Positions 7,487-32,872 of a stretch of DNA of 34,160 bases are shown piece by piece (positions within the stretch are counted from its first letter, which is position 1; each line of letters begins with the position of its first letter). The DNA comes from Candidatus Gastranaerophilales bacterium (GTDB lineage: Bacteria > Cyanobacteriota > Vampirovibrionia > Gastranaerophilales > Gastranaerophilaceae), in the NCBI GenBank assembly GCA_947624645.1, contig CANQLG010000020.1:1-34160 (forward strand). Direction: 5' to 3'. A program made the translations under genes and the position numbers. The notes beneath the pieces were generated by a model that saw only the letters and a program-made list of their open reading frames with translations, was not told where the DNA came from and made no database searches.

Positions 7487-7525
7487 CCTGCCGAATATAC
7501 ATGTGTATATACAAAAGGAGTGAAT

Positions 7526-9511
7526 ATGGTTTCAAATATATTAACATATCTTCAAAAAATACTAGAAGCAGGATCTGAAAAAGTTACTGATAAAAAAGAA
7601 AATGAAAAAGACATCACTTCGCTAGCAGATGTGAGTATTTTTATGTCTGACAAAAAAGATGAAATTGAAGATACTAATAATGATGAATTTATATCATCAG
7701 ATATTAAAACTGCTCAAGAAAACCCCACTCAAGAAATCAACAATGACGAAAAAAAGGAAACGGAAATAAATAAACTATTAAATAATATATACGCAGACAA
7801 CCAAGTTGTTAGTACATTAGATATAGATGGAGATGGTGTATTATCTGACGATGAAAAAACAAAATTTGAAAAATATATTACAGGCTATTCTGATAATACG
7901 GAAGATTTAACTGAAAATGATATTAACAAAGCATATGATGATATAAAAAACGGCACATTTAAATATGGAGAAGAAGAATTACCGGAAGATATTGAACAGC
8001 CTGAAGACACGGATACTACTAACAAAGACGATAAAACACAAGGCGCTGCAAATAATAACAGTGCAAGCAGAAGTGGCGGAGCCGGCGGCAGCGGAGGTGC
8101 AAGCAGAAGCGGTGGAGCCGGCGGTGGTGGAGATAGCTCATATGATGCCGGAAACATTAATTCTGGTGAAAAAAATATTGATAATATGAATAAAGAGGAA
8201 TTGGAAGCTGAATTAACAAAAGCTAATTCTGAGTTAGATGATAAAAAATCAAAACTGGATGAATTACTAAATAATTCTGAGCTTGATGATTTAAAAGAAG
8301 CAGAAGATGAAGCATATGAAGAATACCAAGAACAGCTTCAAGAAGTTGATGAAGAACTAGCGAAACAACTTGATGAAATAAAAACAAATATAGATGAGAA
8401 ACAAAAAGAAATAGATACTAAAGAAAAAGAAATAGCAGACCAGGAAACAACTGTCAGTGAGAATGAAAATAAATATAATAATGCAGTTACGACAAGACAA
8501 ACACTTGAAAGTACATTATCTTCATTGCAATCAGTAGATACATCAAATATGGATGATGCACAAAAAGCCGATCTTCAATCCAAAATAAGCAGTTGCAGTG
8601 CAAAATTATCAGAAGCAAAATCAAATGAAGAAGCAGCAAAAAAAGAATGGGATGAATCAAAGGACAAACTTGAAGAGTTAAAAAAAGAAAAAGAAGATTT
8701 AATCTCAGGCGAAGGCGGATTAAATGACTTAAACAGCCAAATGACAGACAAAGAAAACGAAATTTCAGAAAAATATCCTGAAATTGATGCATCACGCCAA
8801 GCCTATGATGAAGCTAAAGAAGCATATAATGAAGCAAGAGAAAAAAGAGATTCAGAACTTGTAACAGCTAAGGCTGAAGTTCAACAAGCACAAGACCGTG
8901 TAAATGAAATTCAAACAAAAATTTCTCAATGTAATGATAGAGAAACGGTAAGTGAATTTATGCTGGACGGATTAACGGATGATACAAGAAATGCAATTGA
9001 ACTTGCCTTCCAAGAGTTATTTGCCGGAGTACACGAAACCGGAAATAACAGTGGTGAAGTATTAAAATACGGAGCCGGAAAAGGTGTTCCATGGTGTGCA
9101 GCTTTCGTATCTTGGTTATACAGAAAAGGTCAAAATAATATGGACTGTCCTTTGAATTTTAGCGCAGCAGTATCAGGTTTAAGAGATCAAGCTAAAAAAG
9201 CGGGTTATTATTCAGATAAAAGTTCATACATGCCTGTTCCGGGTGATATTATGATACAAAAAAATAATGCATCACATACAGGCTTAGTTGTAGCTGTTGA
9301 AGGTAATACCATATATACAATCGAAGGAAATTCAGGAGATAAAGTAACTCTAAGGAAATATACGGTTGGAAACGGAAGATGGAACAAAATTTCCGGTTGG
9401 ATAAGAATGAATGAGTGGACCGGAGGTTCAAGCAATATTCCGGGAGATACATACCTTTCTTGGATAAAAAAAGGCAACGTTAGTATAGGCAGCAGTAATA
9501 AAACAGTTTAA
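7526..9511 (+). CDS. Coiled-coil protein with EF-hand-like motif and C-terminal CHAP domain
   Basis: A 661-residue modular protein. An acidic N-terminal part contains an EF-hand-like loop DIDGDGVLSDDE (about 94-105). Next comes a Gly/Ser-rich linker (about 175-210) and a long charged coiled coil (about 220-475). A C-terminal CHAP-type cysteine amidase/peptidase domain (about 490-640) has the likely triad C524 (PWCAAF), H584 (SHTGLVV) and E600 (TIEGNS). CHAP domains usually cut peptidoglycan peptides or amides. No signal peptide or transmembrane segment is visible, so the export route, if any, is unclear. I place the start at the ATG at 7526, five bases after AAGGAG; a GTG at 7520 would lie inside that SD. 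The next gene is a paralogue in the same operon. Confidence 0.85.
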   Translation: MVSNILTYLQKILEAGSEKVTDKKENEKDITSLADVSIFMSDKKDEIEDTNNDEFISSDIKTAQENPTQEINNDEKKETEINKLLNNIYADNQVVSTLDIDGDGVLSDDEKTKFEKYITGYSDNTEDLTENDINKAYDDIKNGTFKYGEEELPEDIEQPEDTDTTNKDDKTQGAANNNSASRSGGAGGSGGASRSGGAGGGGDSSYDAGNINSGEKNIDNMNKEELEAELTKANSELDDKKSKLDELLNNSELDDLKEAEDEAYEEYQEQLQEVDEELAKQLDEIKTNIDEKQKEIDTKEKEIADQETTVSENENKYNNAVTTRQTLESTLSSLQSVDTSNMDDAQKADLQSKISSCSAKLSEAKSNEEAAKKEWDESKDKLEELKKEKEDLISGEGGLNDLNSQMTDKENEISEKYPEIDASRQAYDEAKEAYNEAREKRDSELVTAKAEVQQAQDRVNEIQTKISQCNDRETVSEFMLDGLTDDTRNAIELAFQELFAGVHETGNNSGEVLKYGAGKGVPWCAAFVSWLYRKGQNNMDCPLNFSAAVSGLRDQAKKAGYYSDKSSYMPVPGDIMIQKNNASHTGLVVAVEGNTIYTIEGNSGDKVTLRKYTVGNGRWNKISGWIRMNEWTGGSSNIPGDTYLSWIKKGNVSIGSSNKTV

Positions 9512-9555: not shown

Positions 9556-11967
9556 ATGGGAATTCCGTTTATTTCAAGTAATAGAATTGATACTTCATCA
9601 GCGGCAAATCAAGTAAGACAAAGCCAACAAAAAGTAGATGAAAATACCTCAATATTTGATAGTGCAAAAACTGAAGCCGATAATGCATCACAAAACTGTG
9701 ATACATTTCAATCAAGTTATACAGAAGCACAAAGTGCTGTATCAAATGCACAAAGTGAAGTATCAACAGCGCAGAATGCAGTATCAACAGCACAAGGCAA
9801 TGTATCAACAGCTCAAAGCGCAGTATCAACAGCACAAAGTAATGTATCAGCTGCTCAAACCGCATTAGAGGATGCTTACAGTGTCCCTATTGAAACTACC
9901 GTAAATGAAGACGGAACAACTACCGTTGATCCTTCCAAAAGAATAGAAGCAATAAGTCAAGCAGCTGCAAAACTTGCACAAGAAATAGCCAAACTGGAAG
10001 AAGCTAAAGCTCAACTTGAAACAGCAAACAATGAATTAAATGAAGCTATACAACAAGAAGAAGCAGCAAATACTGCATTAAATGAAGCTATAAGTGCAGA
10101 ACAAACCGCTTCAAATGAACTCAGCGAAGCTCAAACTACTGCTGCTCTGGCACAATCGCAGCTTGAAAATGCTTCTGCCAATCTTGAAACAGCTAAAATA
10201 GAACTCCAAGCTGCTCAAAATGAACTTAGTGCAGTTGAAGCAGAAGCACAAAAAGCCGAAGAAGAAGAAAAAATAAAAGAAACTGAAAGAATTGAAGAAG
10301 AACAAGCAGCAGAAGAAGCCGAAGAAGAAAAAGAAACAAAAGAAGAAAAAGAACCAGAAGAGAGCGAACAAAGTAATAATAATGATGAAAATGCAATTAA
10401 GGATGAAACAATAACCGTTGTTTCTGCTGAAGATAAGTTAGATTTAAAAGAAAATGCCGAAATTATCTTAAACTTTGATCCGGAACACGCTTCTGAAGAA
10501 GAAAGAGAAAAATATAATGCTGCAGTAGCTGAAGTTTCTTCCTTATCAGATAAATCGTATGATGTAAGTAATCCTGAGGTAGCTAGTTATTCGGGATTAG
10601 TCAATGCACTTATGGATGAAAAAATTGAGCCGGATGCAACCGTTGAAAATGACGGGCCAATAGCAATGAGCACAACAAGTGAAAGCGAAAAATATCTGGA
10701 CGAAGTGTCTGACAGCATAGACCAAGATATGGCTGAAACATCAGAGGCTGCTCAAGTTATTGTTAATTTCTCTCAATTGGATATGCCTCAAGACTCAGAT
10801 GACTATTGTGAAGAAGAAAGAACAATTTTAGATAGGTTACCGAGCTTTTTAGAACCTTCCGTTATACTTGAATCAGACGGTCCAAACGGTGACTTCAGAA
10901 GCACAGACCATGATGATAAATTTGAAGAATCTTTAGCAGAGGCTGAAGCTGAAATGAGAGCAAAAGGACTTAACCCTGATGACTCAGAAGTAATCAGATA
11001 CGCAAGAATGGCTATTGAATATAAAAACAGTTCAGAATATATAATGCAAGCTGCAGAAACGATGCCAACTGACCCCGATGCAAAAGTATCAAGTTTATAT
11101 AACGGTTCATATTTTGACTTGGTTTCAAATTTAAATGTAATTGTAACTGAAGGAACAGATGAAAAATTCAGATTTAATGAAGATGGTTCAGGGCTGGATC
11201 CAAACAATCCGATAATCGCTACCGTATTAGAATTAAATGATTTTGACTATGAAAGAAATATTGCAAATGGAGTTGCACCCGAAGTAGCAAGAGCTATACA
11301 TTGGGCAACAACGCAAGTTGGTCTTGCTGAAGATACCGAAAAAAGCCATGAAAACATTGATCCAAATGAATATGAAGTTCCTGAAGGCGATAATAAAGGC
11401 TATATAAGTCAATATTGTGAAGCAGTTGGTGCAGACAATATAGCTTGGTGTGCTGCATTTGTAGCCAATGCTTTTGGTTACGCAGCAGAATTTGATCCGG
11501 AAAATAGTGGATATAATCCTATGTACCCTGCAGAAATTGGTGCTGAAAATATAAATTTATTATTTCCCAATAATTCACCTTCAACAGCTGACTTAGTTAC
11601 AGTAAGATATATTCAGCAAGCAGCAGTTGACTCCGGTTATTTCAAATCCATGGATTCAATTGAAAATGGAGAGGAGCAAATTAATCCCGGCGATGTATTA
11701 ATAATTCGCTATCCTGGTAAGAATACGGGGCATACCGGATTAGTAGTACAATGTGATGAAGATTACATATACACAGTGGAAGGAAATGCAAATCAAGCTG
11801 TCAGACTAAAAAAATATCCAAGATCAATATTAAGAGACTATAATTTCGCTGGATTTATTGACATGAACAGATTATATAGCGGTGGTAATGATTATGTTAT
11901 TCCCGAATGTTCTATACCTGAATATTTATTTGTAGATGTAACCAGCGGTGAATCAAGAACCAGATAG
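9556..11967 (+). CDS. Long coiled-coil protein with C-terminal CHAP domain
   Basis: 803 residues. The N-terminal third is an Ala/Gln/Ser-rich coiled coil containing six exact 7-residue units (SAVSNAQ, SEVSTAQ, NAVSTAQ and so on, residues 60-101). A Glu-rich charged stretch follows (about 230-275), then an acidic middle region. The C-terminal CHAP-type domain (about 575-785) has C632 (AWCAAF), H726 (GHTGLVV) and E742 (TVEGNA), in the same order and context as the upstream paralogue. An insert of about 40 residues after the cysteine makes this copy longer. No signal peptide is seen. SD AAAGGA, in an operon with the 7526 gene, 44 bases downstream. A peptidoglycan-cutting activity is inferred from the fold only. 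Confidence 0.84.
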   Translation: MGIPFISSNRIDTSSAANQVRQSQQKVDENTSIFDSAKTEADNASQNCDTFQSSYTEAQSAVSNAQSEVSTAQNAVSTAQGNVSTAQSAVSTAQSNVSAAQTALEDAYSVPIETTVNEDGTTTVDPSKRIEAISQAAAKLAQEIAKLEEAKAQLETANNELNEAIQQEEAANTALNEAISAEQTASNELSEAQTTAALAQSQLENASANLETAKIELQAAQNELSAVEAEAQKAEEEEKIKETERIEEEQAAEEAEEEKETKEEKEPEESEQSNNNDENAIKDETITVVSAEDKLDLKENAEIILNFDPEHASEEEREKYNAAVAEVSSLSDKSYDVSNPEVASYSGLVNALMDEKIEPDATVENDGPIAMSTTSESEKYLDEVSDSIDQDMAETSEAAQVIVNFSQLDMPQDSDDYCEEERTILDRLPSFLEPSVILESDGPNGDFRSTDHDDKFEESLAEAEAEMRAKGLNPDDSEVIRYARMAIEYKNSSEYIMQAAETMPTDPDAKVSSLYNGSYFDLVSNLNVIVTEGTDEKFRFNEDGSGLDPNNPIIATVLELNDFDYERNIANGVAPEVARAIHWATTQVGLAEDTEKSHENIDPNEYEVPEGDNKGYISQYCEAVGADNIAWCAAFVANAFGYAAEFDPENSGYNPMYPAEIGAENINLLFPNNSPSTADLVTVRYIQQAAVDSGYFKSMDSIENGEEQINPGDVLIIRYPGKNTGHTGLVVQCDEDYIYTVEGNANQAVRLKKYPRSILRDYNFAGFIDMNRLYSGGNDYVIPECSIPEYLFVDVTSGESRTR
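9733..9858 (+). repeat. Six in-frame 21-bp tandem repeats (heptad units)
   Basis: Six units of exactly 21 bp, each coding a heptad of the form (S/N/G)-x-V-S-(T/N/A)-A-Q. The core GTATCAACAGC is nearly invariant at DNA level, so expansion looks recent. Unit number may vary between strains, lengthening the coiled coil by whole heptads. Confidence 0.85.
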
Positions 11968-17732: not shown

Positions 17733-18572
17733 ATGCAAATGAAAAAAATAATCATTAATGCTGATGATTTCGGATATTCAAAAGAAAATAATGAGGCAAT
17801 AAAAATAGGTTATGAATCAGAAGTTATAACCTCCGCAAGTATAATGACCAACATGTCAGGATTTGAAGATGCTGTTTATAGGGTAATTCCCCAATGTCCA
17901 AATTTGGATATAGGATTTCATTTTAATATAATAGAAGGTAAAAGCCTGACTTCACCGCCGTTATTAACCGATAATCAAGGTTTTTTTAACAAAAATTATT
18001 TATATATTATAGCTAATTCAAAAAGAAAAGACTTTTTGGAGCAAATAGAAGCAGAATTCAGATTACAGATAGAAAAAATTTTAAAATATCATTCAATCAG
18101 CCATATAGATTCGCATGTACATACTCATGCGATTCCTCATATATACAAGCTTATTATGAAGCTTGCAAAAGAGTATAATATTAATTATATAAGGACCCAA
18201 AAAGAAATTCCTTATTTTGTTTGGCATAGTTCATTCAACTTTAAATATCCTGTCAATATATTAAAAAACATACTTTTAAATTATTATACAATATCTAATA
18301 ACAAGAACTGTTATTCGACTAATGATTATTTTATAGGTATTTTATATACTGGGATGATGGATAAAAATTGTATAATAAAAGGATTAAAGAAAATAAATAA
18401 AAAAAATTCAATAACCGAAATTATTTTTCATCCTTGCACAGATATTAAAAAAGCCAATAATTATGCGGAATTTTTAATAACTCAAGATAAAAAATTTAAA
18501 GAAGAATTAAAAATTTTAGGTTTTGAATTAACAAACTACTCCGTTTTAGAAAGTAAATCAGCCTTGGTGTAA
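17733..18572 (+). CDS. YdjC/ChbG family carbohydrate deacetylase
   Basis: 279 residues of the polysaccharide-deacetylase-like YdjC family (ChbG, HpnK). NADDFGYS (9-16) gives the metal-binding Asp, GFHFN a His and DSHVHTHAIPHI the second His cluster, all expected in this order. The family removes N-acetyl groups from sugars such as chitobiose or hopanoid/lipid-linked GlcNAc. Divergent from the GtrB-like transferase, so the substrate may be a lipid-linked amino sugar (inference). The start is uncertain: ATG at 17733, or the in-frame ATG at 17739 just before KKIIINADD. No SD is evident, and a TATAAA lies at 17719-17724. The 3' end overlaps the convergent 767-residue gene by 37 bases. Confidence 0.87.
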   Translation: MQMKKIIINADDFGYSKENNEAIKIGYESEVITSASIMTNMSGFEDAVYRVIPQCPNLDIGFHFNIIEGKSLTSPPLLTDNQGFFNKNYLYIIANSKRKDFLEQIEAEFRLQIEKILKYHSISHIDSHVHTHAIPHIYKLIMKLAKEYNINYIRTQKEIPYFVWHSSFNFKYPVNILKNILLNYYTISNNKNCYSTNDYFIGILYTGMMDKNCIIKGLKKINKKNSITEIIFHPCTDIKKANNYAEFLITQDKKFKEELKILGFELTNYSVLESKSALV

Positions 18573-20839
18573 TCAATATATCCGTCATATTTACAAGAAT
18601 TAACCGTATTTATAATAGAATCAAGGTCATAACCTTTTTGATAAAGGACCCAAGCTAATTCTGACAATTTATCATCAACAATACCGAAACGATTTTTTGC
18701 TGTTTCAAGTAAAATTTTAATATCTTGAGGGTTAAAGGTATCAATTAAACAACAAATTTTTTCTGCACCTTTGCTTGCATATTGATTATCACCTCTTGCT
18801 GTTTGAAGAATATCACCGATATATTCCATAAAATCGGTCTCATTCATATCGTTATTTTCGCTGAATAAAATATCATCAACAATTTCTAATGCGGTTTCAT
18901 CGACATTTTCACCGTCTGATTTAACCATATCAACTATTTCAACCAAATTATTTTTAGTTTCAAAATAAACGGAAGCTTCGGAAAGAAAATCTTTTAATTT
19001 TTCATTATTACAAGCATCAGAAGCTAATTTAGTCATATAAGGCAGTCCGATAGCAGCATGAGAAAGTACTGATACGGTATTAACCATATTTTGGTTATAT
19101 TCACCATTTTCATTTCTTTCAGGTAAACTTAAAAGCGAAGGTATATCTTTGCTTAATGCTCCGTTTTTCTTATATTGTCCTATAACCTTTATAGTATTGA
19201 CATCAATTGAACCGGATTTATCAAGACACAATTTCATTATCTCATCCAAAGAATTAAGTACAACTCCAAATGAAGTTAAAGCCATTAAAATACGAATATA
19301 TTTAATATCAAGTGCACCTTCAGTCGTTTTATATTTGTCAAGAAGTTTATATAAAACATTATCTTCACAAAGAGCAATCTTTTCAATATAATCTTCTTTT
19401 GTTTTGCTAATACTTTTTTCAGATGGAGTTTGTATAAATTGCATTCCTCCATCTTGCCTTTTATATATACTTCCGGCAGGAGTATCTGCAATTTTAACGG
19501 GACGATTTGCTATATTAATAGGACTTTGCTGTTCTTTCAATTCATTCATTCTGTTTTTAACTAACACAGATTTTAAAGTAATAATTGATTTTATTGTCCG
19601 TTCATTAATATATTGTTCTCCTGTTATTTTATCGGTGCCAACTGCGGAATTTAATATATGAAGCACTGCATGAGGAGAGATTTGGGCATTCAAAAGATTA
19701 TTTGCATAATTAATTGTTTTGTCAATATCAAAATTACCTAGAGTAATAAACTTAGCCAAATCAAGAGCAAATCCGTCTTCATAACCGAAAGATTTAACTT
19801 TTGCGATATTTTCACACAAATCAAAATTAATGACTTCAGCTCCATCAACGCCTTTAGCAATTAACGAGCCTAAATTTCCCGATAAAAAAGCAGCAGACAT
19901 ATTTTTTTGAGCAAGCAATGATAATACTGCAACCTTTTCACCAGAGATATTTCCGTTAATATCCCTGCATTTTTGAACAATCAAAGGAACATAGTATTCT
20001 GCTTTTTTACCTTCAGGCTGAAATGCAGAAATTAATTCTAATACATTTTCACTGCATTCGCCATTATTATCTTTACATGCTTCAATTACACGTCCTAAAT
20101 CAAATTCATCGGAGTCATAAGAACTATCTTCAACTGCTTGAACTACATCATCTTCTTCAGAATCTTCGCCAAGATTTTCAACCGATTGTTCTGCATTAAT
20201 TTCTTCAGAATCCTCGCCAAGATTTTCAACTGTCTGCTCTGCATCAACTTCTTCAGAATCCTCACCAAGATTTTCAACTGTCTGCTCTGCATCAACTCCT
20301 TCAGAATCCTCGCCAAGATTTTCAACCGACTGCTCTGCATCAACTCCTTCAGAATCCTCGCAAAGATTTTCAACCGACTGTTCTGCATCAACTCCTTCAG
20401 AATCCTCGCCAAGATTTTCAACCGACTGCTCTGCATCAACTTCTTCAGAATCCTCGCAAAGATTTTCAACCGACTGTTCTGTATCAAGTCCTTCTGTAAC
20501 TTCATTATGCTTTTCTTGCGGTTTATGTATAGGCCTATAATATGGAATTGTTTTGGGTTTTACATCATCCGTTTTTGGTTCTTCGGTTAAAGAATTTACC
20601 TCATGCTCAATCCACTCTAATTCACCATCAAAACCATATTGGTCGGCTAAATCTCTTAATCTGCCAAGAAACTCTAACTTTCTTTGTTTCAATATAGGAG
20701 AATTAGCAAATTCTGATTTAGCTGTTCTTTCAACAAACATTTCATATAATTTCTTTGATCTTTTATATATATCTTCGGGAGATATGGGTTTTGATATTTC
20801 ATTATTACCCGTATTATTTTTAATCGAAAAATCCGTCAT
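18536..20839 (-). CDS. Large hypothetical protein with seven acidic 16-residue repeats
   Basis: 767 residues, no signal peptide or transmembrane helix, no domain I recognise. A helical, basic N-terminus (1-110) precedes seven tandem 16-residue units, consensus EQSVENL(G/C)EDSE(G/E)VDA (121-232), plus one degenerate unit (233-248). The remaining 500 residues are alpha-helical with Leu-rich spacing. Several calcium-binding-like or solenoid-like pieces recur (KDNNGECSENVLELI, RDINGNISGEKVAVL, LDKSGSIDVNTIKVI, KSDGENVDETALEIV), resembling a degenerate internal repeat of D-x-x-G-x-(I/C)-x-x-x-x(3)-(V/I). SD AGGAG. Flanked by a deacetylase and, divergently, the heat-shock cluster; neither suggests a role. 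Confidence 0.8.
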   Translation of the reverse strand: MTDFSIKNNTGNNEISKPISPEDIYKRSKKLYEMFVERTAKSEFANSPILKQRKLEFLGRLRDLADQYGFDGELEWIEHEVNSLTEEPKTDDVKPKTIPYYRPIHKPQEKHNEVTEGLDTEQSVENLCEDSEEVDAEQSVENLGEDSEGVDAEQSVENLCEDSEGVDAEQSVENLGEDSEGVDAEQTVENLGEDSEEVDAEQTVENLGEDSEEINAEQSVENLGEDSEEDDVVQAVEDSSYDSDEFDLGRVIEACKDNNGECSENVLELISAFQPEGKKAEYYVPLIVQKCRDINGNISGEKVAVLSLLAQKNMSAAFLSGNLGSLIAKGVDGAEVINFDLCENIAKVKSFGYEDGFALDLAKFITLGNFDIDKTINYANNLLNAQISPHAVLHILNSAVGTDKITGEQYINERTIKSIITLKSVLVKNRMNELKEQQSPINIANRPVKIADTPAGSIYKRQDGGMQFIQTPSEKSISKTKEDYIEKIALCEDNVLYKLLDKYKTTEGALDIKYIRILMALTSFGVVLNSLDEIMKLCLDKSGSIDVNTIKVIGQYKKNGALSKDIPSLLSLPERNENGEYNQNMVNTVSVLSHAAIGLPYMTKLASDACNNEKLKDFLSEASVYFETKNNLVEIVDMVKSDGENVDETALEIVDDILFSENNDMNETDFMEYIGDILQTARGDNQYASKGAEKICCLIDTFNPQDIKILLETAKNRFGIVDDKLSELAWVLYQKGYDLDSIINTVNSCKYDGYIDYTKADLLSKTE
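20144..20479 (-). repeat. Seven 48-bp in-frame tandem repeats
   Basis: Exactly 336 bp, seven units of 48 bp, high DNA identity with substitutions mainly at the Cys/Gly codon (unit position 8) and the Gly/Glu codon (position 13). The pattern gives an acidic 16-residue repeat. The reading frames on both strands stay open because the unit length is a multiple of three and lacks stop triplets. Confidence 0.92.
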
Positions 20840-25749: not shown

Positions 25750-26592
25750 TTACTTTGTAAAAATATTCTTATCTTTAAATTTATATTCATCCTCTTTAGA
25801 TTTTGGGATTTTATTTAATTTTTCTTTTTCAGTTTTATTTTGCTCCTCAGTCTTTGAAACTTCAGAAATTGAATAGTTTAAAGCATTTTTATAATTTTCT
25901 TTATCTTCATTATCTTTTTTTGTACCGGTATAATGAAGTGAGAATGCATTATTTTCAAGCTGAGCTTTCAGTTCTGCATCTTCAACTGATAATCCCCTAT
26001 TAATATATTTCTCTACATTTAGGTTAAACTCAGTTTGAGAGATTTCTTCATCTTCATTGCCTTCAGCACTTGAACCGCCACCGACACTGATATTGATACC
26101 TTCATTTTCAAACTGTTTGATTAAATCAACATCAACGGCAATATCAGAAAGAATTTGATTCATAAATACTTCTTCAACTTCAATAGCAGCATTACCGTTA
26201 GCATCAGCTATAACAATTTCTCCGCCTTTTCCGTCCGAGATAGTATATACATTTATACCGCCGTTTCTAACTTTTCTTGACCCATGTCCGGCTGACTTTT
26301 CATCAACCATATATTGAGTTTGAACCCATTGAGTACTGACGGATAAGCCCATACTTTTTAAAGAACTTACAAAAGTACCATTTTGCATAACATTTCTTTT
26401 ATTACCAAACAATGAAGCCACTCTCGCTTGCAATTCGTAGTCCGCATCACAATCAAAACTATCTGTAATCATATCTTTTACATTATCACCCAAATAATAG
26501 CCATAATGTTCAAAAGATGCTTCATTAGCACTTAAAGAAGTGGTTTTGAATCCTGCTTGTGTTAATTCGTTTTTTATGGAACTCGAAGTCAT
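25750..26592 (-). CDS. Hypothetical protein
   Basis: 280 residues, no signal peptide or membrane segment. The N-terminal 140 residues look folded (TSSSIKNELTQAGFKTTSLS; a Trp/Tyr-rich VSTQWVQTQYMVDEKSAGHG; a Gly/Asp-rich SDGKGGEIVIADANGNAAIEV beta region). An acidic linker with GGGSSAEGNEDEE follows near 175, and a Lys/Glu-rich, probably disordered C-terminus. The layout resembles the other modular, signal-less proteins here (CHAP and repeat proteins), but I find no shared domain. SD GAGGT. Divergent from the radical SAM gene. Confidence 0.65.
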   Translation of the reverse strand: MTSSSIKNELTQAGFKTTSLSANEASFEHYGYYLGDNVKDMITDSFDCDADYELQARVASLFGNKRNVMQNGTFVSSLKSMGLSVSTQWVQTQYMVDEKSAGHGSRKVRNGGINVYTISDGKGGEIVIADANGNAAIEVEEVFMNQILSDIAVDVDLIKQFENEGINISVGGGSSAEGNEDEEISQTEFNLNVEKYINRGLSVEDAELKAQLENNAFSLHYTGTKKDNEDKENYKNALNYSISEVSKTEEQNKTEKEKLNKIPKSKEDEYKFKDKNIFTK

Positions 26593-26691
26593 TTGTTTAC
26601 CTCATTTCTTATTTTATTCTTATATATATAAAGTATATACTCTTTATAGAATTGCCTTTTTTGTATATATCAATTTAATATTTCTTAATAA

Positions 26692-26721
26692 TTAGAAAAA
26701 AAGTCAATAATAATCTATACT
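26692..26721 (+). promoter_or_regulatory. Promoter giving a possible leaderless mRNA for the radical SAM gene
   Basis: TTAGAA (26692-26697), 18-base spacer, TATACT (26716-26721), seven bases to the ATG at 26729 and no SD between. Transcription is expected to begin at or next to the start codon. Confidence 0.5.
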
Positions 26722-26728
26722 TATATGT

Positions 26729-28552
26729 ATGAAAAAAGACAAAATAGTACTGATTTTCCCGCCACAATGGACCCCAATCAGTCCGCATTATGCGTTGCCA
26801 TCTTTAATTGGGCAGCTAAAGTCCAACGGATACAGCGCAAAAGCAATGGATTTAAATATAGATTTTTACGATAAGATTTTAACGAGACAAAATCTTGAAG
26901 ATTCATTTCTTTTAGCAAAAATACAATTAGAAGAATTAAAAAAAGAAATATTAAAGATATATTCTCCCGCTAAAAAAGAAAATGATTATTCATTAGAAGA
27001 AAAAATAATTTTATATAAATACAATTATTTAAAAAAATATTATGCAAATAATGAGGAAAAGGCAAAAATAATTCCGTCTTTTATTGAGGCTGCAAAGAAA
27101 ACTTTTAAAACTGATGACTTTTATAATCCTGTATTATTAATAAAATCTTTGAATATAATAGATAAAGGACTTGAAATAGTTTCTTTACCATATAGTCCTA
27201 CAAGAGTTCAATTTGATTGGATTCAAAATCCTTTCTTTAAATTTAATTTTGAAAGTATTAAATATTTTGTAAATGATACAAACAGCAATATATTTATAAA
27301 ATACTATGAAACAAAAATAGAAGAAATACTTAAAGAAACACCTGACTTAATAGCTGTATCAATAAATTCTTCAAGCCAGATTATAGCAGGATTAACACTT
27401 ACAAGTATATTGAAAAAAAGAACTGATGCTCATATCAATATAGGCGGGAATTTTTTCGGAAGAATTACTGATGAATTAAAAAAATATCCCGAATTTTTTA
27501 ACGATTTTGCCGACAGTATATCAATTGAAGAGGGCGAAGGACCAATACTTAAATTGGCAGAATATATCGCATCCAAAATTCCTATTGAGCAAGTTTCAAA
27601 TTTAATGTATAAAAAGGGGAATGAAATTATACAGAACCCTAAAATGAAGCCGCTGAAACTCGATGAAGTAAGTAATGTAAATTTAGATGATTATGAATTT
27701 AATAAATATTTTTCCCCTGATATAGTTTTACCTTTTCAGTCATCAAGGGGATGTTATTGGGGCAAATGCAGCTTCTGCGATCAAGATTTCGGACAAAACT
27801 TCAATATAAAGAATACGGATAAAACAATAAATGAATTCAAAGAATTAAAAGATAAATATAATATCAGTAAATTTGAATTTATAGATGAATCTGTTTCACC
27901 CGTTTATTTAAAAGAATTATCCGAAAAATTAATAAAAGAAAATGTAAAAATAAGTTATTTTTGTGATGCAAGGCTGGAAACGGCATTCGAATCAGATATA
28001 TTAAAATCGGCAAATGAATCAGGATTAAAAATGATAATGTGGGGATTAGAATCAGGTTCAGCCAAAGTAATGAAGTTAATAAACAAAGGAATAGACTTAA
28101 ACAAACGATTTGAAATATTAAAAAATTCAAATGATGCAAATATATGGAATTTCGCATTTATTTTCTTCGGATTTCCGACAGAAACAAAAGAAGATGCTCA
28201 AAAAACGGTAGATATGATAATAAAATATAAAGACATTATCCACTCATACGGCAGAAGTATATTTACAATGGGACGCCATGCTAAACTTGCACAAGACCCC
28301 GAAAAATACGGAATAACAAAAATATATCCGGCAGAAGAAGAGTTTTCTCCCAATATAAACTTTGAATGCATAGGAATGAATAAATCAGAACTAAAAGAAA
28401 CTCTTCAATATTGTATACAAGAATGTGCCAAAACTTATCAAAATCCGTTATGGATGTATTTAAGATATAGAGAATGGCTATTCCTTTATATAGATAAATA
28501 TGGTAAAAATTATGTAAGTACGTACAATCTTAATTTAAAAGAGGATAAATGA
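26729..28552 (+). CDS. B12-binding-type radical SAM protein with CX4CX2C cluster motif
   Basis: 607 residues. The N-terminal domain begins IVLIFPPQWTPISPHYALPSL and contains SSSQIIAGLTLTSI and a GGNFF segment, the layout of cobalamin-binding radical SAM enzymes. The DxHxxG cobalamin histidine motif is not seen, so B12 may be bound base-off or not at all. The radical SAM core (about 335-560) has C342, C347 and C350 in SRGCYWGKCSFC: CX4CX2C instead of CX3CX2C. EFIDESVSP and IMWGLESGS follow, as in the family. The reaction is unknown. The preceding DNA has a -10 box seven bases from the ATG and no SD. Its stop overlaps the next start. Confidence 0.87.
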   Translation: MKKDKIVLIFPPQWTPISPHYALPSLIGQLKSNGYSAKAMDLNIDFYDKILTRQNLEDSFLLAKIQLEELKKEILKIYSPAKKENDYSLEEKIILYKYNYLKKYYANNEEKAKIIPSFIEAAKKTFKTDDFYNPVLLIKSLNIIDKGLEIVSLPYSPTRVQFDWIQNPFFKFNFESIKYFVNDTNSNIFIKYYETKIEEILKETPDLIAVSINSSSQIIAGLTLTSILKKRTDAHINIGGNFFGRITDELKKYPEFFNDFADSISIEEGEGPILKLAEYIASKIPIEQVSNLMYKKGNEIIQNPKMKPLKLDEVSNVNLDDYEFNKYFSPDIVLPFQSSRGCYWGKCSFCDQDFGQNFNIKNTDKTINEFKELKDKYNISKFEFIDESVSPVYLKELSEKLIKENVKISYFCDARLETAFESDILKSANESGLKMIMWGLESGSAKVMKLINKGIDLNKRFEILKNSNDANIWNFAFIFFGFPTETKEDAQKTVDMIIKYKDIIHSYGRSIFTMGRHAKLAQDPEKYGITKIYPAEEEFSPNINFECIGMNKSELKETLQYCIQECAKTYQNPLWMYLRYREWLFLYIDKYGKNYVSTYNLNLKEDK

Positions 28553-28896
28553 TGGATTTTTTCAAAAAAATAGGTGAAAAATTAGGTTTTGTTGAAGAAG
28601 AAAATAAGACAGAACAAATCAGGCAAGAGCGTGAAAAAATAAAACAGACTCTGATAGATAACCTAAAAAAAATTAATTTTACCGATGCGGAAATCGAAGA
28701 AGTTCTTGCTATACTCACAAAGATGGAAGCAGACGTTCAAGTACAAAAAGACTTGTTGATAGGAACCAATATAAATAATCCGGACCCCGGACCCGTTATG
28801 AACGAAATGCTTGGAGAAATAAGGCGTTTGGAAATCAAAGCAGGTGAAAATATAAAAGCCAAAATAGCAGAAATTCGTGCAAGAAAGTCAAAATAA
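28552..28896 (+). CDS. Small helical protein coupled to the radical SAM gene
   Basis: 114 residues, very charged, predicted to be two long helices (about 5-75 and 85-114) joined by a Pro/Gly loop NNPDPGP. It begins FFKKIGEKLGFVEEENKTEQ, an amphipathic opening that might touch membrane. It could be an accessory or substrate protein of the radical SAM enzyme, since it starts within its stop codon (TGATG; GAGG SD seven bases before the ATG at 28552). The ATG at 28549 is an alternative start. No leader/core features of a ribosomal peptide precursor are evident (no Cys, few Ser/Thr). Function unknown. Confidence 0.65.
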   Translation: MDFFKKIGEKLGFVEEENKTEQIRQEREKIKQTLIDNLKKINFTDAEIEEVLAILTKMEADVQVQKDLLIGTNINNPDPGPVMNEMLGEIRRLEIKAGENIKAKIAEIRARKSK

Positions 28897-29289
28897 CATA
28901 GATTTACTGCAATCTCAGAAATTTATATTAAAGGAGCTTCGCTTTGTATCGCTTATGCTCGTTCTCACCATACTAACTGTAATTTGAATATACAAAACTA
29001 AAACCTGATTAAAACATAATTTTAAATTGATATGAACCAATATTAGCGATAGCTTGTCAAAATCTCAAACCGAGGATATCGCTTTATGGGAAAGCTACGC
29101 AGTTGATAACTCGAGCTACACTCTTTTAATTAAAAGGGCTAAAAAGTTTAGGAACTAATTTAACATTACGATAGACAAACCACATTCCTCTATCAACTTT
29201 TTAAATTAGCAAACAACCCCAAACCACAATCCGAAATGGGTCAATGTCCTAATTTGGTTGGTAACTTAAACTATTATTTTATCAAAGTA
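28897..29289. other. 393-base intergenic region without a convincing gene
   Basis: No open frame with start signals. It contains one copy of the dispersed TTTGTATCGCTT-N-TGCTCGTTCTC element (28943-28966), an A/T palindrome CTTTTAATTAAAAG (29123-29136) and a nested inverted repeat (29155-29163 with 29201-29209, enclosing 29170-29175 with 29189-29194). CAAACCACA occurs at 29176-29184 and again near 29221. It may hold a small RNA or the remains of a decayed gene. Confidence 0.5.
28943..28966 (+). repeat. Dispersed TTTGTATCGCTTaTGCTCGTTCTC element, distal copy
   Basis: 24 bases matching 33974-33997 with one mismatch, 5 kb away and unrelated to coding sequence in both places. A shorter 17-base version is at 33832-33848. 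Probably a short interspersed repeat of this genome. Confidence 0.6.
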
Positions 29290-30084
29290 CTATTTCAAGT
29301 ATTGACGTTTGATTTCTTTTTGCAAATATTCATTGAAAACTTCTACGTTAGGCTTTCTTGGGTTGAAATTACTAAATTCTTTTTGCAGTTCAATATTAAA
29401 ATATGCATCAAACTCAGGTATTCGCAAGATTACATCACGTTCCAAACCCTGTGACTTTATTTCTATAACTTCCTGAATTTTTTTATAAATTTCAAGCGGA
29501 ATAATATTTTTAAGTTCATGTACCGTTTGTTTTAAATCAAGCGGAGGGATTTTATCATATTCATAAACATATTTAGCATTCAAAAGTCCACGCATAGAAT
29601 ATAGATACTTTTTATAAGTTATTGCTTTTGCCTGTTGTATAAATTCCCGATAATTATTTTTGAATAATGAAAAATAGTGTTTGAATAATCTTTCTTGATT
29701 AAAATTTTCTTTCATATATTCACGCAGCGGCAAGTTGTTATCGCCATAATAAACTATCGAAGAATTTAACCATTCAATCGTTGTCGGATTTGAGGCAAGT
29801 AAAAGTTTTAAATATTTAAAAATATCAAATCCGCTCATATCAATTAAAGAGCCTTGTGCTTCGCAAGATTTCAAATCTTTATCAAATGCAAAATTTATAA
29901 CATTTTGTTTAGGATTTAATACAATATAATCATTTATTTTTCTTTTAAAAACAAAACGCACATCAAAGTCGCTGTCTTTACTTGCCATACCCCAAGAACG
30001 GCTTCCGTTTTCAATTGCAAAGATAATTTTTACATTTTTATCTTTTTCTATTTTTTGCAATATTTTTTGTATTTTATTTTTCAT
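29290..30084 (-). CDS. RlaP-type RNA-repair nucleotidyltransferase
   Basis: 264 residues of the polymerase-beta nucleotidyltransferase superfamily, Pfam RlaP type (RtcB-associated). NGSRSWGMASKDSDFDVRFVF (26-46) is the diagnostic motif: G27-S28 then the metal-binding D39 and D41. A helical C-terminal domain follows. The family is predicted to add or process nucleotides at damaged RNA ends; the precise reaction is unproven. It starts three bases after the rtcB stop, with an AAAAGG SD inside the end of rtcB, so the two are one operon. Together they form a ligase plus nucleotidyltransferase repair pair. Confidence 0.88.
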   Translation of the reverse strand: MKNKIQKILQKIEKDKNVKIIFAIENGSRSWGMASKDSDFDVRFVFKRKINDYIVLNPKQNVINFAFDKDLKSCEAQGSLIDMSGFDIFKYLKLLLASNPTTIEWLNSSIVYYGDNNLPLREYMKENFNQERLFKHYFSLFKNNYREFIQQAKAITYKKYLYSMRGLLNAKYVYEYDKIPPLDLKQTVHELKNIIPLEIYKKIQEVIEIKSQGLERDVILRIPEFDAYFNIELQKEFSNFNPRKPNVEVFNEYLQKEIKRQYLK

Positions 30085-30087
30085 GAT

Positions 30088-31314
30088 TTACCTTTTGCCT
30101 TTTCTTTTAAAGTGTTCACTTGCTTTAAAGTTGTATATTGGTTTGATTATTTTAACTATATCTGCTGTTGGAGTTATATTATTTACAATATCATCCATAG
30201 TTTTATATGCCATAGGACACTCATCAAGAGTATCTTTATTAATGGATGTGGAGTATATTCCCTCCATGGAATTTTTAAATTCTTCAACCGTAAAATTCTT
30301 TTTTGCCTTATTTCTGCTGAATAACCTTCCCGCACCATGAGGAGCAGAATAATTCCAATCTTCATTACCTTTGCCTATACAGATTAAACTTCCGTCACGC
30401 ATATTTATAGGAATTAAAAGTTTTTCATCTTTTTTGGCAGAAACTGCACCTTTTCTAAGAATCATTGACTCTGTATCTATGTAATTATGAATTGTCGTAA
30501 ATTCTTCTTTTATGGTTAATCCAAGACCGTTAAGAAGTTCATCTGCCATGGCTTTTCTGTTTAAAACCGCATATTTTTGTACGATTTTCATATCATGAAT
30601 ATAGTCATCAAATAAATATCCGCTTGCATAAGCAAGAGCTTTGGGTATATCCGTTATAATTTGATTTTTTAATTTTGATATTGTTTCTTTAATTTCAGAG
30701 TATCTGCCTTGTAATTTTAAACTTTCCGTTACTTCATTAAGCATTTTTTTAGAGCAGTTATTAAGTTGTTTATATGCTTCTTCCTGATAGTATTCCGCCA
30801 CTTGTTTACCTAAAAATCTGCTTCCTGAGTGTATTACAATATACAAATTACCATTATCATCTTTGTCAATTTCAATAAAATGATTACCACCGCCGAGAGT
30901 TCCGATGCTATGAACCGCTCTGTGTTGATTTATCATATTAAGACAGCATAAATCTTTAATTTCAATTTCATCAATATATTGGTGAGGAATTTTTCTTATA
31001 TTCATTCCGCTTGGAATATTGTCATAAATGAATTTATCAAACTTTTCTAAATCAACGGAAGTATCGGCAAGTTCAATAGTTTCCATACCGCAGCCGATAT
31101 CAACTCCTACAAGATTTGGAACAACTTTATCCTTTATTGTCATTGTCGTTCCGATTGTACAACCTGCACCTGCGTGAACATCAGGCATGATACGAATTTT
31201 ACTATCCTTAATAAAATCTTGATTGCATAACGTTTGTATTTGCAGTTTTGAGGATTCATCAATTTTATCTGTAAATACTTTTGCAATATTTTTTTGACCG
31301 ATAATATTTTGCAT
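30088..31314 (-). CDS. rtcB: RtcB-family RNA ligase (3'-phosphate/cyclic phosphate to 5'-OH)
   Basis: 408 residues, the size of E. coli RtcB. It joins RNA 2',3'-cyclic-phosphate or 3'-phosphate ends to 5'-OH ends using GTP and Mn2+. Metal and catalytic residues are in place: D72 and C75 (GVDIGCGM), H145 (GGGNHFIEI), H162 (HSGSR), H276 (TTIHNYI) and the guanylylated H326 (SAPHGAGR). I start it at the ATG at 31314, preceded by AAAAAGGG; a longer frame would run into tRNA-His. The gene begins only 23 bases after the tRNA-His 3' end and is followed at once by rlaP. No archease gene is seen nearby. Confidence 0.95.
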   Translation of the reverse strand: MQNIIGQKNIAKVFTDKIDESSKLQIQTLCNQDFIKDSKIRIMPDVHAGAGCTIGTTMTIKDKVVPNLVGVDIGCGMETIELADTSVDLEKFDKFIYDNIPSGMNIRKIPHQYIDEIEIKDLCCLNMINQHRAVHSIGTLGGGNHFIEIDKDDNGNLYIVIHSGSRFLGKQVAEYYQEEAYKQLNNCSKKMLNEVTESLKLQGRYSEIKETISKLKNQIITDIPKALAYASGYLFDDYIHDMKIVQKYAVLNRKAMADELLNGLGLTIKEEFTTIHNYIDTESMILRKGAVSAKKDEKLLIPINMRDGSLICIGKGNEDWNYSAPHGAGRLFSRNKAKKNFTVEEFKNSMEGIYSTSINKDTLDECPMAYKTMDDIVNNITPTADIVKIIKPIYNFKASEHFKRKGKR

Positions 31315-31337
31315 ATTTACCCTTTTTATATATTTGG

Positions 31338-31409
31338 GGTGCAAGAAGGGAGTTGAACCCTTGTTATCCGAGCCACAATCGGAGGTTCTACCGTTAAACT
31401 ACATGCACC
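31338..31409 (-). tRNA. tRNA-His (anticodon GUG)
   Basis: On the complement, the anticodon stem TCCGA/TCGGA encloses loop TTGTGGC, giving GTG. The extra 5' G(-1), hallmark of tRNA-His, is encoded and pairs with C73. The acceptor GTGCATG/CTTGCAC has one U-U mismatch (6-67). A CCA follows directly (31335-31337), unlike the tRNAs at the window start. T arm AAGGG-TTCAACT-CCCTT. Nine bases downstream of tRNA-Phe and 23 bases before rtcB. Confidence 0.95.
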
Positions 31410-31645: not shown

Positions 31646-32872
31646 ATGTCTGAATACTCTGAATTAATCAAAAACTTTAGTCGTATAAGAGATTATATGC
31701 GTGAGTTTTTTGTGTTCGGATTTAAGACAAGAAACGATTTTAATCAAAAAAGCAAGCGCACATACGACAATGAACGAAGAAGAATTGAAAATTATCTGGG
31801 AGATATAACAAAATGGGAATACACAAATGGAGGCAAAAAAGTATTTATTTCCGTCGATTTATCTAAAATCCCTGAAAATCCTTTTTATAAAGCATACAAA
31901 TCAAAAAGTTTTACCGATAATGATATTATTCTGCACTTTTTAATTTTGGATATTTTAACAAGTAATGACAATCATACACTTGATGAAATAACAGACATAA
32001 TAAATGACCGAGTTGAACTTATATTTGAGCCTCAAACAGTTAGAAATAAACTCAAAGAGTATTGTGAATTTGGAATTATCAATGCGGTAAAAAATAAAAA
32101 AACATATTATTATTCTTTGAATAAATGTTATTTTAAAGATTTTGGAATTTCAACCGATGCAATTAGTTTTTTTAGTGAGATTGCTCCGTTTGGGGTAATA
32201 GGAAGTTATATTAATGACAAAATCGGAAATAAAAACATTAAGTTTCAATTCAAGCATAATTTTATAGTTAATACGCTTGAAGATAATGTAGCGCTTGATA
32301 TTATAAATGCAATAAAACAGCAAAAACGAGTTATTATTAATAATTTTTCCCGCAGAAAAAATGTAGCCGATAATATTAATATTCTGCCATTGATAATTTT
32401 TGTAAGCGTACAAACGGGAAGAAGATATGTAATTGCACAAGGCAGGGGTAAATTTAGGTTTTCGGTTTACCGTTTGGATTATATAAAAAGTGTTAAAATT
32501 TTAGAAAAAGATGAAAATTTTTCTTCTATTAGGGAAAGTTTAAAATCTTGTTTTGAAAATTCTTTTTCAACGGCATTGGTACAGGAATGTAAGCCTGAAC
32601 ATTTTGAAATGACTTTATTTATTAATGAAAAAAACGAAGATTTTATTATTAAAAGGCTGGAACGTGAAAGCAGAGGCGGTAAAGTTGAAAAATTAAGGCG
32701 TAATATATATAAATATTCAAATGATATTTATGATACGAATGAATTAACAACTTGGATTAAAACTTTTATCGGAAGAATTATTGAATTAAATGGGAATAAT
32801 AAAAAGGTTATAGACCTTTTTTATGAAGATGTTAAAAAAATGGCACAAATGTATGGAGGTATTAATGAATAA
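31646..32872 (+). CDS. WYL-domain protein (first of a tandem pair)
   Basis: 408 residues. An N-terminal helical region begins FSRIRDYMREFFVFGFKTR, followed by a winged-helix-like part (about 85-165, with NDHTLDE-like spacing and YYYSLNKCYF). The WYL domain (about 210-290) has ILPLIIFVSVQTGRRYVIA then FSVYRLDYIKSV; the W-Y-L triplet itself is replaced by R-Y-V. The WCX-type C-terminal extension spans about 310-400. WYL proteins are mostly transcription regulators that bind nucleotide-type ligands, as in PafBC. It is divergent from the rtcB-rlaP unit across a 154-base gap holding a TATAAT (31621) and SD AAAAGG. Likely a regulator of the repair operon (inference from position). Confidence 0.82.
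   Translation: MSEYSELIKNFSRIRDYMREFFVFGFKTRNDFNQKSKRTYDNERRRIENYLGDITKWEYTNGGKKVFISVDLSKIPENPFYKAYKSKSFTDNDIILHFLILDILTSNDNHTLDEITDIINDRVELIFEPQTVRNKLKEYCEFGIINAVKNKKTYYYSLNKCYFKDFGISTDAISFFSEIAPFGVIGSYINDKIGNKNIKFQFKHNFIVNTLEDNVALDIINAIKQQKRVIINNFSRRKNVADNINILPLIIFVSVQTGRRYVIAQGRGKFRFSVYRLDYIKSVKILEKDENFSSIRESLKSCFENSFSTALVQECKPEHFEMTLFINEKNEDFIIKRLERESRGGKVEKLRRNIYKYSNDIYDTNELTTWIKTFIGRIIELNGNNKKVIDLFYEDVKKMAQMYGGINE

Follow-up and report, generated by a model that had tools for sequence, protein, structure and literature searches.

A radical SAM enzyme of cobalamin-dependent fold and two linked proteins form a candidate protein-modification module in Gastranaerophilales

In a contig of a Candidatus Gastranaerophilales bacterium, a radical SAM enzyme gene (P0001) is accompanied by two genes that recur with it in relatives: a gene for a small charged protein (P0002) that overlaps its end, and a divergent gene for a protein that we call SLP (substrate-like protein, P0003). 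Our preferred reading, which we hold at about even confidence, is that the three genes make up a protein-modification module in which the enzyme acts on SLP, whose sequence includes an EF-hand-like loop, and P0002 serves as an adaptor instead of being modified itself. The SLP gene, the third conserved component, is absent from the earlier note on this DNA and surfaced when the neighbours of the enzyme's relatives were clustered. The window is the whole stretch of DNA that was analysed, 34,160 nucleotides long, and the features discussed below are located in it as follows.

25750..26592, minus strand: gene for SLP (P0003, 280 aa), divergent from the enzyme gene; probable substrate, facing the enzyme in 28/28 sampled SLP genomes and single-copy in its own genome
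25921..26037, minus strand: C-terminal repeat unit of SLP, 39 aa, ending in YTGT, present here in one copy, located with a repeat profile
26170..26205, minus strand: EF-hand-like loop DANGNAAIEVEE, SLP residues 130-141, with conserved D/N/N/E/E loop positions
26593..26728, no strand: A+T-rich divergent intergenic region between the SLP and enzyme genes, presumably holding both promoters
26729..28552, plus strand: open frame of the radical SAM enzyme P0001, 607 aa
27752..27778, plus strand: predicted [4Fe-4S] cluster motif C342-x4-C347-x2-C350 of P0001
28549..28896, plus strand: open frame of the small charged partner P0002, 115 aa, beside the enzyme in relatives; probable adaptor

The cysteines C342, C347 and C350 of P0001, in the context SSRGCYWGKCSFCDQ, form the CX4CX2C motif that the earlier note had pointed out. 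Neither these residues nor their spacing vary among 28 aligned sequences, of which the window's is one, and the motif is present in 80/80 enzyme genes of more than 400 aa from 77 public loci. The loci were drawn by two peptide patterns, one of which contains KC[ST]FCD, so that C347-x2-C350 is partly selected for by the way the loci were drawn, and the x4 spacing is not. Judged by this alignment, the CX4CX2C motif of the enzyme clade is not due to chance. P0001 passes the Pfam cut-off of PF04055 (51.8 bits against 29.5) and carries, as predicted from its sequence, the three cluster cysteines of the radical SAM superfamily in the CX4CX2C variant. Pfam places it in the superfamily alone and all its NCBIfam matches fall below their own cut-offs; a dedicated small partner and no assigned reaction, as first proposed, are thus borne out, and the enzyme clade is without an assigned reaction in the libraries searched. 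The top NCBIfam match is TIGR03975 (124.3 bits against a curated cut-off of 281.85, residues 187-536), and the score for TIGR04014, the MgmA family, is 73.1 bits against 360; membership in either family was rejected on these scores. Several of the NCBIfam neighbours carry names that describe B12-binding radical SAM families. Among the best 80 matches of the contig scan, the nearest relative's enzyme, from a Candidatus Gastranaerophilales, has 74% identity to P0001.

We take PoyC to be a member of TIGR03975 and Cx7Cx2C to be the defining motif of that family. Like P0001 as we read it, the TIGR03975 RiPP maturation C-methyltransferases are cobalamin radical SAM enzymes with an unconventional first cysteine spacing, and they alter ribosomal peptides. 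P0001 differs from them in its score and in its motif, the PoyC-type methyltransferases being printed as Cx7Cx2C in PMC5682303; and, in contrast to TIGR03975 systems, the trio has no further gene recurring next to it in more than 9/34 window-type loci. MgmA, the methyl-coenzyme M reductase glutamine methylase (PDB 9ccb), is a B12 radical SAM enzyme methylating a protein residue according to the abstract of PMC11796369; it is alike in fold and in methylating a protein, but it has 17% identity over the aligned part, a different target and the low NCBIfam score given above. The earlier note had treated the extra residue in the first cysteine spacing as a sign of novelty. That sign has lost its force, since Cx4Cx2C is already printed for GenD1, GenK and Sis14 in PMC4340712 and is also found in a queuine lyase (PDB 6p78). 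GenD1 and GenK, the gentamicin C-methyltransferases, are cobalamin radical SAM enzymes that methylate aminoglycosides (PMC4340712); their small-molecule substrate and antibiotic pathway set them apart from P0001. The queuine lyase carries SRPCIWGKCSFCD, i.e. CX4CX2C, but its chain has 251 residues against 607, and the phmmer match covers residues 337-502 only. Among the matches listed, all of them open PMC papers, no title or abstract start describes the module.

The AF2 model of P0001 (pLDDT 93.8, pTM 0.92) has an N-terminal cobalamin-binding-type Rossmann region joined to a C-terminal radical SAM domain, the predicted domain arrangement of class B (cobalamin-dependent) radical SAM enzymes. 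Its best structural matches are OxsB (Z 22.9, 2.9 A over 399 residues, model residues 1-566) and TsrM (Z 21.0, 3.6 A over 435 residues, model residues 2-607), which have 15-16% identity and other substrates and contexts. These are accompanied by AprD4 (Z 20.9), MgmA (Z 20.6 over 359 residues), CysS (Z 19.7), and TokK and MiaB (Z 18.2 each). On the basis of this model, P0001 has the fold and domain arrangement of cobalamin radical SAM enzymes. To our knowledge, AprD4 and MiaB are not cobalamin enzymes, and as they match nearly as well, fold alone is no proof of cobalamin; P0001 nevertheless probably uses it, if the model is a guide. The same two matches are what would be expected if the trio were a stable complex whose enzyme worked without cobalamin chemistry, for example on SLP or RNA, in a reaction like that of AprD4 or MiaB. 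This we regard as quite improbable: the top long matches, OxsB and TsrM, were solved with cobalamin according to the titles of their structures, and the B12-binding names among the NCBIfam neighbours point the same way.

The linkage of the three genes was followed in two overlapping samples. Among 383 genomes of the order (thresholds E <= 1e-8 for SLP and E <= 1e-200 for the enzyme), SLP is found in 28 and the enzyme in 32, and all 28 are among the 32. In every one of the 28, by comparison of coordinates by eye, the enzyme faces SLP on the same contig and the partner lies beside the enzyme, and all 30 SLP places in the 383 genomes are near an enzyme, on the same contig and the opposite strand. 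The four enzyme genomes without SLP (G049, G128, G133 and G366) have the lowest four enzyme scores; the partner adjoins the enzyme in three of them, and in G049 it is beside another paralogue. The partner profile is matched more widely, in 50/383 genomes. In the second sample, 58 relatives that overlap the 383, SLP occurs in 17 genomes, the same 17 that have an enzyme above 730 bits.

At the level of loci, the best 80 matches of the contig scan gave 77 loci. Most of their records are titled Gastranaerophilales; the outlying ones bear the titles Sericytochromatia, Armatimonadetes, Cyanobacteria, Chlorobiaceae, Nitrosomonadales and Defluviitaleaceae. We defined close relatives as the 67 enzyme genes in these loci with at least 780 bits and counted neighbours within 2.5 kb, using mechanical ORF calls for counts and gaps alike. 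The partner is found beside 61/67 and an SLP-type gene beside 61/67; 59 have both, four have neither (L208, L222, L225 and L226), and of the six without a partner and the six without SLP some are at contig ends. The expectation that the small gene always follows the enzyme therefore holds for most but not all relatives: it is directly downstream, on the same strand and within 60 bp, in 55/67 (gaps from -83 to +22 bp), and is missing within 2.5 kb in 6/67. In the 34 window-type loci, which were chosen by their SLP, the partner is present in 34/34; the family that comes next in frequency within five genes reaches 9/34. Conversely, 59/59 partner matches, 38/38 window-type SLPs and 22/25 subfamily-2 SLPs lie within 2.5 kb of an enzyme gene, counts that are limited by loci spanning just about 6 kb on either side and by window-type and subfamily-2 SLP profiles built largely from the loci counted. 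The stricter control is the bacterium's own genome (2,136,895 bases in 71 contigs). Here SLP is single-copy, and four enzyme family members are found, the window copy and those on contigs C17, C14 and C6. Both partners in this genome adjoin an enzyme. The closest enzyme paralogue (C17) has its own diverged partner and SLP-type gene, and the gene map around the C14 member is without such neighbours.

A quick tree of 90 enzymes has one branch (SH-aLRT 95) that gathers 76 rows. Both neighbours are present in 67 of them, the partner alone in 3, SLP alone in 2 and neither in 4; the 14 rows beyond this module clade have neither, their outer order being unsure given the long branches. Neither partner nor SLP-type neighbours were found for the distant enzymes L236-L240, L247 and L289-L293. 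The earlier note had named relatives lacking the small gene as an observation that would count against its proposal, and such relatives do exist at the edge of the family, namely the 6/67 close relatives and the 14 outer rows.

The linkage data also bear on the idea of a small-molecule or lipid substrate, with SLP and the partner as carrier, sensor or regulator of the product. OxsB, AprD4, CysS and TokK act on small molecules, going by titles and general knowledge, and so do GenD1 and GenK, which have the same cysteine spacing. Moreover, a family of 325-345 aa, of which three tested members are short radical SAM proteins, occurs within five genes of the enzyme in 9/34 window-type loci (e.g. 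L061:6079-7074). However, no third family exceeds that frequency, which means that a shared biosynthetic pathway is not seen at the locus, and close clade paralogues have their own SLP-type gene, as would be expected of a substrate. We consider a small-molecule or lipid reaction rather unlikely.

Several other observations were made in these neighbourhoods. A repeat protein of 611-620 aa follows the partner in 6/34 window-type loci (e.g. L061:11233-13095), one member having a sub-threshold C-terminal DnaJ match. In a related genome (G002 contig C5, L054:4231-19900), eight tandem paralogous radical SAM genes of 547-581 aa on one strand are followed by a YcaO cyclodehydratase gene; this array looks like a separate RiPP-type cluster. 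On G017 contig C3 (L055:721-19632), several more distant radical SAM paralogues are interleaved with shorter proteins, two of which, of about 340 aa, are radical SAM proteins by Pfam.

The small partner is coupled to the enzyme as the earlier note had described: the first ATG of P0002 and the TGA stop of the enzyme share the four bases ATGA. Equimolar synthesis, which the earlier note had drawn from this, does not follow from an overlap of start and stop. A second in-frame ATG at 28552 is the better fit to the start in the nearest relative, and AGAGG stands just upstream. The two genes are probably carried on one transcript; promoter-like matches in 26450-29250 number 19 against 16.2 in shuffles and are not clearly above them. 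P0002, which may be helical as the earlier note had it, could not be placed in a known family: it reaches the cut-off of no Pfam family and no NCBIfam model, and against solved structures it gives solely matches with E 0.04 or more. A PqqD-type profile is absent among its Pfam and NCBIfam matches up to E 1, such elements being divergent. We also considered a defence function. P0002 has two weak PADLOC matches (E 3e-4 and 0.0035, one of them MukB-like) that we judged to be coiled-coil chance, and with no PADLOC match for P0001 or P0003 up to E 0.1 the locus was rejected as a defence system.

It was suggested in the earlier note that the small protein is itself what the enzyme modifies. On such a reading the conserved LIGTNIN stretch would be the site, and SLP would be a binding or sensing component. 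The gene is directly coupled to the enzyme and stands beside 61/67 relatives, and G72, N74, I75 and N76 are invariant across 15 subfamily-1 partners. On the other hand, the linkage of SLP is just as tight, and the GTNIN stretch has disappeared from L057, L075, L081 and L083, which keep enzyme and partner, while L073 retains it. Cys, Trp, Tyr and His are all absent from P0002, a composition that would still allow methylation. Finally, sister lineages have a dissimilar protein in its place, which in two outlying loci is fused to SLP, an arrangement that suits an adaptor better than a substrate. Together these points make P0002 an improbable substrate.

SLP itself is modelled by AF2 with residues 31-150 mostly above pLDDT 84, dipping to 70 at 101-110. 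In its loop, positions 1, 3, 5, 9 and 12 are D, N, N, E and E in 37/37 aligned window-type SLPs, which is the metal-ligand pattern of the 12-residue EF-hand loop. Read in this way, the window-type loop would have the ligands of an EF-hand, and SLP may bind a metal there. The Pfam EF-hand profiles PF00036 and PF13202 do not match P0003, and among ten SLP-type proteins their best scores are 14.3 and 13.9 bits against cut-offs of 25.4 and 25.9. Foldseek found no PDB match to the SLP fold at E <= 0.001; VIA-align Z scores stayed at 3.6 or below, a few EF-hand chains being among the weak rows. This does not by itself make the fold a new one. Between subfamilies, window-type and subfamily-3 SLPs align across the loop (94%, E 1.5e-7), window-type and subfamily-2 SLPs solely before the loop (51 columns, 88.8%), and subfamilies 2 and 3 weakly (14.6%).

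The 39-residue YTG repeat at the C-terminus of SLP is present in two or three copies in L173, L181, L183 and L187, and also in L220, of another subfamily. Among locus ORFs its profile matches SLP genes alone at E <= 0.01, and in the bacterium's own genome it has one clear place, the next being at E 0.02. Repeats that vary in number next to a radical SAM enzyme are reminiscent of multi-core precursors; as the unit is modelled by AF2 as a helix pair, this likeness is a lead only. In SLPs of subfamily 3 and the sister lineages (L073, L081, L083, L228 and L242), a Gly/Met-rich stretch of GMG type precedes the loop domain, reading MCGMGMGMG in L073 and L083, and this stretch is a possible modification site; the window SLP is without it.

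A search of the phylum found the enzyme at E <= 1e-100 in 30/386 genomes, and 16 stretches were examined, 13 of them from 12 outlying genomes. Seven of these loci, L282-L288 from six genomes (three contigs being those of L228, L242 and L230), have a partner of about 90 residues in 7/7 and an SLP-type gene in 6/6 where the contig reaches far enough. No homology was found between this partner and P0002 (hhalign probability 0.4% and 0.1%). Two loci have this type of partner and SLP fused in a single ORF, of 405 aa in L287 (E 8e-24) and of 326 aa in the Armatimonadetes locus L229 (E 5e-10). As the partner types are without demonstrable homology, the fusion argument carries over to P0002 by position only. 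The SLPs can be compared more directly. A 97.7% profile-profile match was discarded as inflated, since the same Armatimonadetes row stood in both alignments, and a subfamily-3 profile built without that row (L229) served as a clean test. It matches the SLPs of L228 (1.6e-7), L242 (8e-5) and L229 (2e-4) and some window-type SLPs; in all, 25/3,331 ORFs are matched at E < 1e-3, every one within 1.4 kb of an enzyme gene and 5 of them its own members again. Between sister-lineage and window-type SLPs, 39 columns at the loop align (79%, E 1.6e-5).

In 6/7 sister-lineage loci (L282-L287) the trio is joined by a YD/RHS-repeat protein of about 270-296 aa, and a short contig (L294) carries a partial enzyme with a YD-repeat gene. 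The more distant enzymes of L289-L293 have no YD-repeat gene. No link was found between this gene and the repeat gene downstream of some window-type loci (0.6%), and an apparent enzyme-repeat fusion in L286 is a frame artefact.

Taken together, the linkage, the paralogous sets and the partner-SLP fusions point to SLP as the most likely substrate, with an adaptor role for the small protein. In the mechanism that we propose, P0002 would be a dedicated adaptor bringing SLP to the enzyme, and P0001 would alter the SLP encoded divergently next door. An unactivated carbon would probably be C-methylated or otherwise altered by radical chemistry, and this site may lie in or near the conserved EF-hand-like domain or in the C-terminal YTG repeats. 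We infer the substrate, the adaptor role and the kind of modification together from the pattern described, and the co-occurrence of SLP fits a role as sensor, carrier or inhibitor equally well.

Elsewhere in the window, two long proteins (7520-9511 and 9556-11967) are rich in coiled-coil-like sequence by eye; the first has a C-terminal CHAP domain and the second is just below the CHAP cut-off. A 767-aa protein (18536-20839) has many near-identical acidic repeats of the DSEGVDAEQSVENLG type and no Pfam match at E <= 0.001. At 29290-31344, an RlaP-family nucleotidyltransferase gene adjoins an RtcB ligase gene, an RNA-repair-like pair, and a WYL-domain protein is encoded nearby at 31646-32872.

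The known ribosomal substrates of cobalamin radical SAM enzymes are for the most part short precursor peptides or methyl-coenzyme M reductase. If the conserved set acts on a larger uncharacterised protein, this would be a new kind of substrate for these enzymes, and SLP gives a named candidate substrate to an enzyme clade that lacks an assigned reaction in the libraries searched. The duplication of the set within the bacterium's own genome is a hint that it has a genuine function in these uncultured inhabitants of the gut. A broader reading, which we offer as doubtful though worth stating, is that the module is old, occurring in Gastranaerophilales, in sister lineages within the phylum and in at least one Armatimonadetes-titled record, and that in it a cobalamin enzyme rewrites a dedicated folded protein, at its EF-hand-like domain or YTG repeat, via a separate adaptor. 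If true, these systems would be unlike short-peptide RiPP systems in having a substrate of about 220-540 residues and paralogous sets of enzyme, adaptor and substrate within a genome.
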